Origin: Cohaesibacter sp.
GTDB taxonomy: Bacteria; Pseudomonadota; Alphaproteobacteria; Rhizobiales; Cohaesibacteraceae
DNA: 64,000 bases
Direction of reading: 5' to 3'
NCBI GenBank assembly: GCA_025800145.1
Contig: JAOXSH010000082.1
Coordinates: forward strand, 1 to 64,000
Part shown: in pieces, positions 10,837 to 35,672 of the stretch
How the letters are laid out: every line of letters begins with the position of its first letter
Numbering within the stretch: the stretch's first letter is position 1
The notes under the pieces: generated by a model
The model's input: the letters and a program-made list of their open reading frames with translations, nothing else
Told to the model about the DNA's origin: nothing
The model's database searches: none
Translations under genes and position numbers: made by a program

Positions 10837-10970
10837 TCACGTTTCTCTTTCTGCCAAGGCTTTGCCGTCAAAAAGAAAGATGCCAAATGATCTGAAACCA
10901 GATCCTTGCCATCTGTTGCGACATACATAAACGGGACGCACCATAATCGCAATGGATTTATGGTTATATA

Positions 10971-11230
10971 TCTCTTGCGGCTATTCCGAGCAAAGCTCGG
11001 GCCTGCGAGGGCACGGACCATACGGTCCGGTCACCTATCGGTTCCCGGTAAAATCTATATTTTCACCATATTCTTTTGTCCTTGCACCATCGAATAGAAC
11101 GTGAGAAAAACCAGTTCTCTAGGGGAAAAGACCCCACAAAAGAAAATCCTTTCTTTTGTGACGGCCGATAGGCAAGCGCGAAGCGTGCACTCGCAGGCCG
11201 ACGCGCAAGCGGCGAATAGCCGGTAAGAGG
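10971..11230. repeat. Family B mosaic hairpin repeat array (two inverted units)
   Basis: Two units face each other around about 11095. Each has the conserved block order CGGCTATTC, short hairpin, GGCCTGCGAG, second hairpin, CCTATCGG. The hairpin stems differ between units yet pair internally: CGAGC-AAA-GCTCG and GGACC-ATAC-GGTCC in the left unit. The left unit ends in GGTAAAATCTATATTTTCACC, itself a hairpin. The right end runs into the ubiG ribosome site (GTAAGAGG). A larger array of the same family is at 34687-35060. Confidence 0.85.
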
Positions 11231-11235
11231 TAAAA

Positions 11236-11994
11236 ATGACCAAACAGGAAAATTTTGCTGGCAGCACAGTGGATGATGCGGAAATTGCCCATTTTTCTGC
11301 CATGGCAGCTGAATGGTGGAGCCCAACCGGTAAATTTCGTCCTTTGCATAAGCAAAATCCCACACGCCTTGCTTTCATCCGCGAAAATATTGTCAGCCAT
11401 TTTGGCTTGGATGCCAAAGCCCAAAGTCCCTTAAAGGGCCTCACCATGCTAGACATTGGCTGTGGTGGCGGCTTGATTTGCGAGCCTCTCACCCGCATGG
11501 GCGCAAATATGACTGGCGCTGATGCATCAGAGGTCAATATCGGCATTGCCAGCACCCATGCCAGCGAGAGCGGACTTGATATCAACTATTGTGCCACAAC
11601 CGCCGAAAGTCTGGCCGAAGCAGGCGAACAATTTGACGTGGTTCTGGCTATGGAAGTGGTGGAACATGTCAGCGATGTGCCGCTTTTCATCAAGGCTTGC
11701 ACCTCTATGGTCAAACCCGGTGGTCTGATGTTCATGTCTACTCTCAATCGCACGCTCAAAAGCTGGGCTGGTGCCATTGTTGGTGCGGAATATGTCTTGC
11801 GCTGGCTCCCCATTGGCACTCACCAATGGGATAAGTTTATCACCCCAGATGAGTTGGAAGCCGCCTTTCAAAGCACCAATCTGACCATGACCAAAAAAGA
11901 AGGCATGATCTATAACCCGCTCTTTGATCGCTGGTCACGCGGCCCCGATATGTCCATCAATTATATGGTCATGTGCGAACGGCCCCTAACATAA
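11236..11994 (+). CDS. ubiG: UbiG, ubiquinone biosynthesis O-methyltransferase
   Basis: Carries out both O-methylations of the ubiquinone ring. The 252-residue protein is typical in length, with [18 protein letters not shown] near the start, the SAM motif [19 protein letters not shown], the post-motif [13 protein letters not shown], and [18 protein letters not shown] lies six bases ahead of the ATG, and this ribosome site is the last part of the family B repeat. It is divergent from lysC, as in related genomes. Confidence 0.96.
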
Positions 11995-34686: not shown

Positions 34687-35060
34687 CTTATCTCTCTTAC
34701 GGCTATTCTGCGCTTTAATATCTCTCACGTGCTATTCGATGCTACGCATCGGCACTACGAGGTGCGCTTCGCGCTTGCCTATCGGCCGCCAGAAAAAGAA
34801 AGATTTCTTTTTCTGGATCCTTTTCCCTTACTAATCTCTCAAGAGACAAGAAGATGGTGAAAATATAGATTTTCACCGGGAACCGATAGGTGACCGCAGC
34901 TTGTCTGCGCACCTCGTAGGCCGATGCGTAGCATCGAATAGCCGTGAGAGACAAGATACGATGAAAACATCACGTTTTTATCGGGAGCCGATAGGCGACC
35001 GGACCGCAAGGTCAGTGCTCTCGCAGGCCTGCGCGCAAGCGCAGAATAGCCGCAAGAGAG
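34687..35060. repeat. Family B mosaic hairpin repeat array (three units plus a fragment)
   Basis: Read on the minus strand from 35060, unit one is GCGGCTATTC, hairpin, GGCCTGCGAG, hairpin, GCCTATCGGCTCCCG, then a hairpin near ACGTGATGTTTTCATCG. Unit two (34957 downward) is CACGGCTATTC, GATGC-TAC-GCATC hairpin, GGCCTACGAG, then CACCTATCGGTTCCC, ending GGTGAAAATCTATATTTTCACC. A third unit from about 34720 on the plus strand is inverted (GTGCTATTC, same hairpin, GCCTATCGG). A fragment (ACGGCTATTCTGCGC) precedes it at 34699. No coding sequence is apparent; the array fills the gap between gloB and lrp. Confidence 0.88.
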
Positions 35061-35552
35061 TTAAAGAGGCACCGAGCCAAATAATTTCTTGGCCGTTTCA
35101 TTGATAAGGGTATGGCGACGGTCGAACTTTTTCGCCAGCACAATATTGGTCATGGTCTTGTTCACACCTTCAATCTCGCCAATTTCATCAAGCAAAGCGT
35201 CCAGATCCTCCAATTGGGGCATTTCCACAATCAGCGATAAATCAAACGCACCATTAACGGTGAAGCAGGAAGAAATTTCAGGAAAATCCTCCAGTCGGGT
35301 GACAATGGCATGTTGCAATTTGGGATCAATCTCAACAAACACAATCGCCCGGTTCAAGGTCTCCAAGGGATCACGATTGAGCAAAACCGTAAAGCCGTCA
35401 ATCACCCCTTCGCGTTTCAATCGCTCAATCCGCTCATGAACAGTTGAACGAGCAACATCCAGCCGCCGCCCAATCTCGGACGTAGACATCCGTGCATCAC
35501 CTTGCAAAAGGCGGATCAATTTCCGGTCCAATTCATCCAGATTACGGCGCAT
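35061..35552 (-). CDS. Lrp/AsnC family transcriptional regulator
   Basis: The 163-residue protein has an N-terminal winged HTH (LDELDRKLIRLLQGDARMST, SEIGRRLDVARSTVHERIERL) and a C-terminal RAM/ACT-like ligand domain (FVEIDPKLQHAIVTRLEDFP, GAFDLSLIVEMPQLEDLDAL). It is divergent from the ALDH7-type dehydrogenase gene, so it probably controls that gene in response to an amino acid such as lysine; this is inference from position. GGGAGATG precedes the ATG. Confidence 0.9.
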   Translation of the reverse strand: MRRNLDELDRKLIRLLQGDARMSTSEIGRRLDVARSTVHERIERLKREGVIDGFTVLLNRDPLETLNRAIVFVEIDPKLQHAIVTRLEDFPEISSCFTVNGAFDLSLIVEMPQLEDLDALLDEIGEIEGVNKTMTNIVLAKKFDRRHTLINETAKKLFGSVPL

Positions 35553-35571: not shown

Positions 35572-35672
35572 TAGAGCATATTTCCGAAAAGTATGTGCGG
35601 CTTTCGGAAATATGTTTAAAAACAAAAACTAGAACATTTTGAATAACGACGTATTTATTCAAAATGTTCTAG
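35572..35672. repeat. Family C repeat (double hairpin, about 100 bp)
   Basis: It begins TAGAGCATATTTCCGAAAAG and ends in the palindrome CTAGAACATTTTGAATAA ... TTATTCAAAATGTTCTAG. An inverted homologous copy is at 49911-50016. Confidence 0.88.

Follow-up and report, generated by a model that had tools for sequence, protein, structure and literature searches.

We describe a family of palindromic mosaic repeats that forms two arrays in the window, i.e. the whole 64-kb stretch of DNA analyzed here. The family is probably a non-coding, non-autonomous DNA repeat, similar in kind to BIMEs and MITEs, which is reshuffled by hairpin-driven DNA events. In this naturally occurring example, pairing appears to be maintained at the DNA level while stem sequences are free and the unpaired blocks fixed, and structure recognition and templated correction are separable by experiment in this family.

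Organization of the two arrays

Three units of ~100 nt and an end fragment are located at window positions 34688-35064, and two further units at 10970-11231. Each unit has four hairpins and is of one of two kinds, R, which is often found in tandem with a period of 105-109 bp, and L. The opening blocks and the first hairpin are common to both kinds, whereas the second hairpin and the tail (last hairpin) are different. In minus-strand order, the 34688-35064 array consists of R, R, a spacer, an inverted L and a truncated end block. The outer R unit (unit 1, 34957-35060, minus strand) matched R1, a covariance model that we built from nine R units, with 104.7 bits; it has blocks at 35044-35052, 35020-35029 and 34988-34995 and the hairpin-1 stem CTGCGC/GCGCAG. 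The inner R unit (unit 2, 34853-34952, minus strand, 79.7 bits) has its blocks at 34936-34944, 34913-34922 and 34883-34890, and the stem CGATGC/GCATCG. Between it and the facing L unit (34720-34817, plus strand, 50.7 bits) is the spacer, a gap between model matches at 34818-34852. Hairpin 1 of the L unit (34737-34751) is identical to that of R unit 2 and is followed by GCGCTTGCCTATCGGCCGCC and an A/T-rich last hairpin, and an inverted repeat with 100% identity (34731-34753/34920-34942) joins these two units. The truncated outer end block (TCTCTTACGGCTATTCTGCGCTT, ~34693-34715, plus strand) repeats the outer end of R unit 1 in inverted form, and the inverted repeat 34688-34715/35037-35064 (93%) represents the inverted ends of the array. 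At the second locus an R unit (10970-11070, plus strand, 100.9 bits, hairpin-1 stem CCGAGC/GCTCGG) is accompanied by an L unit (11133-11231, minus strand, 45.7 bits) that stops 5 bp ahead of the start codon of the ORF at 11236-11994.

The conserved blocks in fixed order described in the original prediction were confirmed at both loci. Its changing complementary stems were also found, GATGC/GCATC and CGAGC/GCTCG in the first hairpin and GGACC/GGTCC in the second, and the tandem and inverted arrangement noted there corresponds to one L unit facing two tandem R units, plus the truncated end block. In the 64-kb window CGGCTATTC is present in 5 copies vs 0.39 expected and GCCTATCGG in 5 copies vs 0.35 expected, with two sites of the latter (26786 and 29696) outside both arrays. 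GGCCTRCGAG has 4 exact copies in the window; at one mismatch its 12 copies (7.05 expected) are not above chance, as 6 of 100 shuffles reached 12.

The array at 34688-35064 lies between convergent genes for a hydroxyacylglutathione hydrolase and an Lrp/AsnC regulator, and this Lrp/GloB neighborhood gave no functional lead. The adjoining Lrp-type protein is 95% identical to a protein of Cohaesibacter sp. McBI.23 and 87-88% identical to those of three named Cohaesibacter species. The second locus is found between divergent ORFs, which we take to be lysC and ubiG, the latter being the ORF at 11236-11994. Window 35572-35672 holds a different interspersed palindromic repeat, with inverted pairs at 35577-35614 and 35629-35672. 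It accounts for about 20 of the listed matches in genomes G002 and G007, and by eye a stretch like it is present inside an element of our family at locus L023, where it separates the fifth R unit from the L unit.

Conservation of pairing and structure of the core

In the alignment of 9 sequences 92.0% of cells were paired, and changes on both sides of a pair numbered 37, vs 0-5 with slid partners. For 102 distinct rows, obtained from 103 R1 matches in 34 loci by an alignment fitted to the model, 89.9% of cells were paired and both-side changes numbered 705 vs 53-111, the H0 rows resting on a weaker first register of the outer helix. In the core this first register was dropped; it left one position unpaired in 20 and another in 12 of the 25 rows, and the revised register, 3-5 with 41-43, is paired in 98.7% of cells (25 cores). 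For these 25 cores, chosen from many genera, pairing was 94.1% and both-side changes 75 vs 2-16. The covariance model and covariation test called for in the original prediction hence gave both-side changes far above the slid-partner background. Of the selection on structure that was proposed there, the pairing constraint is strongly supported, but selection and templated correction are not separated by these counts.

The outer helix alternates between CGC/GCG, CTC/GAG, ATC/GAT and GTC/GAC, outside a TCAC/TRC loop, and is followed by an invariant GGC/GCC with mostly a TATT bulge and then by a free stem. The unpaired TCAC/TRC and TATT blocks are fixed while the stem sequences vary. The hairpin-1 stem is ~6 bp long and its first pair is C-G in 94 of the 100 rows with letters. 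A longer form was seen in 14 of the 103 R1 matches, in which hairpin 2 is larger by ~40-50 bases and the total length is 142-153 nt (G002 loci L066, L069, L070, L073, L074, L079, L081 and L082); several of these read as a nested hairpin GATACGC...GCGTATC, and it is in tandem in L072.

Pairing at the DNA or the RNA level

If selection acted on one RNA strand, G.U would be expected to be tolerated above A.C. Imperfect pairs amounted to 198 G.T and 174 A.C over all helices, and to 95 and 71 when four doubtful column pairs were excluded, again with H0 rows in the weaker first register. Hairpins 1 and 4 alone had 24 G.T and 44 A.C, and the core 3 and 5 of 440 cells, while hairpin 2 showed the opposite trend (117 and 14), mostly from one near-invariant column. 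As G.T is hardly above A.C (95:71), the pairing looks to be kept at the level of DNA and not of one RNA strand, through selection or through templated correction within the palindrome. The mean fold was -45.7 kcal/mol for the reverse strand vs -43.2 kcal/mol for the unit strand, which was the lower of the two in 22 of 97 cases.

The strong covariation, the four hairpins per unit and the genes near units on both sides are what a structured RNA would give, such as a leader, a terminator or an sRNA array, with unit-strand transcripts that fold and act on their neighbors. Such selection at the RNA level is nevertheless quite unlikely, given the near balance of G.T and A.C in all three comparisons (95:71, 24:44 and 3:5) and a reverse strand that folds equally well or better. 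In addition, Rfam 15 gave no matches at gathering thresholds in the 64-kb window, either orientation of one element is found at one site (see below), and the genes flanking the loci are convergent in some cases and divergent in others. The structured RNA first suggested for this array is therefore not favored. This also serves as a warning that strong covariation alone does not prove an RNA gene.

Distribution across genomes

The whole-genome search, likewise called for earlier, gave 24 R1 matches at E ≤ 0.1 on 9 contigs of the own Cohaesibacter-like MAG, thus the family extends beyond the two window loci. Of the 18 genus genomes, R1 detected it in four (G000 with 23 matches at E ≤ 0.001, G002 with 54, G006 with 2 and G007 with 16). 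At E ≤ 0.001, 44 of the 397 genomes in an order sample matched R1, in 21 of 141 genera, and the top score outside Cohaesibacter was 58.5 bits vs 114.2 bits inside. One locus was inspected in each of 27 of the 40 order carriers outside Cohaesibacter. The first two hairpins and the unpaired blocks are common to these 27 loci and the tail is different; the opening block deviates in some of them (L089, L118, L128 and L132). R2, a model of the two-hairpin core, matched at E ≤ 1e-4 in 11 of 385 genomes of a class sample, one of them the own genome, and in 7 of 398 of a phylum sample. These seven comprise the own genome and genomes of the same order or the same class, and R2 had no matches among the other-class genomes of the phylum sample, which number ~263 if this sample is the same draw as that used for the exact pattern below. 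An exact pattern, found in 2 of the 398 phylum-sample genomes, was too strict compared with the core model (7 of 398). These large-sample counts are lower bounds because of the stricter filters used in scoring. A plasmid collection and phage records gave no match to the window array at E ≤ 1e-5. Taken together, the two-hairpin core with its fixed unpaired blocks is patchy in the order and the class.

Fixed unpaired blocks next to free stems are also compatible with an array that binds a nucleoid protein, gyrase or similar, where the hairpins would be putative binding sites. This we regard as very improbable; 14 of the 18 genus genomes are without the family, which argues against an essential chromosome function.

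Arrays, orientation and mobility

Among 48 clusters the commonest forms were R+L- (8) and L+R- (7), and tandem forms had up to five R units. The commonest element is thus an R unit facing an inverted L unit, with 25 facing R/L pairs. From the inner pair of the window array came the idea that facing units share hairpin 1, but this was rejected (4 of 25 match, 3.1 expected, P ~0.39).

Four two-ended loci had both flanks matched between G000 and G007, with flank identities of 92.9-97.2%. The element was in opposite orientation in three of the four (L023/L085, L027/L049 and window 10970/L059, where L059 is additionally rearranged) and in the same orientation at L033/L052. The difference could also reflect replacement by an oppositely oriented copy, since unit content differs at the flipped loci, or misassembly, since G000 and G007 are fragmented (161 and 1220 contigs). 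At the two cleaner loci the orientation switches inside the inverted ends, where the shared ends are ~10-15 bp: inside TTTCTCTCACGGCT for L023/L085 and at TCTCTCACG for L027/L049. Other two-flank comparisons showed the same orientation, i.e. the lrp locus (G000, G002 and G006), L027/L069, the R-only locus L036/L061/L071, and L037/L070 at ~70% identity. The orientation counts leave out loci matched on one flank only (L022 and L032 with L077, and others). That close relatives differ in orientation suggests that the rate of flipping can be measured.

Within 70 bp outside the end, 19 of 73 ends carry an additional end block of like orientation, as compared to 1/73, 1/73, 1/73, 0/73 and 0/72 in five more distant windows. 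Such doubled end blocks, e.g. window 34693-34715, suggest insertion of newer copies into or beside older ones.

Some individual loci have further features. At L068:1756-2249 an 86-aa ORF (1826-2086) lies between an L unit and an R half that is broken in hairpin 2. At L068:4240-5010 two R-L elements are found beside a tRNA-like sequence, in which ARAGORN reported no tRNA, and the second of them has GGAAGTCTGGCTT on one side and its complement on the other, as though placed in a hairpin loop. At L134:1200-1520 (genome G926) the core continues in frame into the 3' end of a gene, presumably that of an enoyl-ACP reductase.

G000, G002 and G006 carry the lrp-side element, which L010-L012 and G001 lack; its hairpin-1 stems differ between carriers at the one site. 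The left flank of the C8 locus was matched in G006 and G002 at 74%, and its right flank was unmatched. No empty site in a close relative and no recent jump were seen, and by eye the flanks had no constant target duplication. In the loci read no transposase was seen between the ends. The original prediction also pointed to a RAYT elsewhere in the genome; PF01797, the RAYT-type Y1 transposase, is however absent from the own genome, and it was found in 3 of 12 other carriers searched and in 1 of 3 non-carriers; the genomes G000, G006 and G007 are incomplete. In G002, the four PF01797 places off contig C10 are at least tens of kb away from model matches, and C10 itself is without model matches. 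A palindromic mobile unit with REP-like hairpins, as also proposed there, is the best fit as to kind, but no linked RAYT was found.

A dedicated recombinase or transposase could read the hairpin ends and both move and invert the element. At ~10-15 bp, the shared ends that contain the switch points are short for ordinary homologous recombination, and the fixed unpaired TCAC/TRC and TATT blocks next to variable stems would suit such an enzyme. We still hold this to be unlikely: PF01797, the sole enzyme family sought, is not consistently present, the ends are unmatched within elements (the 4 of 25 pairs above), and the small plastid inversions between 18-19 bp inverted repeats described in PMC6342102 indicate that an enzyme is not required. 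The narrower idea of mobile invertible elements restricted to Alphaproteobacteria, with DNA-hairpin ends recognized by a recombinase unrelated to RAYT, appears similarly unlikely.

For the non-autonomous repeat that we favor, an element would consist of two inverted ends (R and L), each with several hairpins, around a short spacer. Copies would first reach new intergenic sites through an insertion process. The hairpins would then act as DNA, either single-stranded at the replication fork or as cruciforms, and may favor template switching and slippage as well as exchange between the two inverted ends. Such events would reshuffle the element in place, and possibly they themselves re-pair the stems.

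Comparison with known repeat families

The BIMEs of enterobacteria, which are built from REP units with RAYT, are mosaic palindromes found in several orientations and in amplified arrays. Our family is likewise a mosaic of several palindromic units with arrays and both orientations (48 clusters), but apparently without the REP tag, and no linked RAYT was found. RIMEs (Rhizobium-specific intergenic mosaic elements) are palindromic mosaic repeats between genes in the same order, and by this description the family would resemble them as an intergenic palindromic mosaic.

According to PMC3733652, GTAG/CGTC REPs are 20-40 bp long, mostly extragenic and usually paired as inverted dimers around a structured spacer. 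The CGTC type is described there as commonest in Alphaproteobacteria and not associated with transposase genes, with a stem of 8-9 bp in which the first two pairs are almost invariably A-T, rare head-to-tail arrays and, by definition, a terminal CGTC (or TGTC, CCTC) tag beside the stem. The two have in common repeated, mostly extragenic palindromes, mostly in inverted pairs, and the lack of a transposase link. Unlike CGTC REPs as presented in that source, however, our family has ~100-nt multi-hairpin units, frequent head-to-tail arrays, a first stem starting with C-G, a TATT bulge and a TCAC/TRC loop. A minority of units start with CGTCTTCAC or TGTCTTCAC and others with CCTCTCAC or TCTCTCAC, and the CGTC-type tag is away from the stem. 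From the differences in stem start and architecture, the family is not the CGTC REP described in PMC3733652.

MITEs, given in the same source as 70-300 bp long with terminal inverted repeats of 15-30 bp, are similarly short and non-coding with inverted ends. The hairpin ends here are of variable sequence with only ~10-15 bp fixed, many elements exceed 300 bp, and neither a target duplication nor a parent transposon was found in the loci inspected. In the hairpin-associated small inversions of plastids described in PMC6342102, loops of 5-9 bp flip between 18-19 bp repeats. Here too relatives appear to differ by the flipping of a segment bounded by inverted repeats, although the elements are several hundred bp long.

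In a limited literature search we found no account of the family, and the listed papers with ACGGCTATTC were unrelated by title, which agrees with the original statement that no named family has these blocks. Apparently, the family is so far undescribed, and it looks more like a cousin of REP, BIME and MITE than like a gene or a classic RNA.
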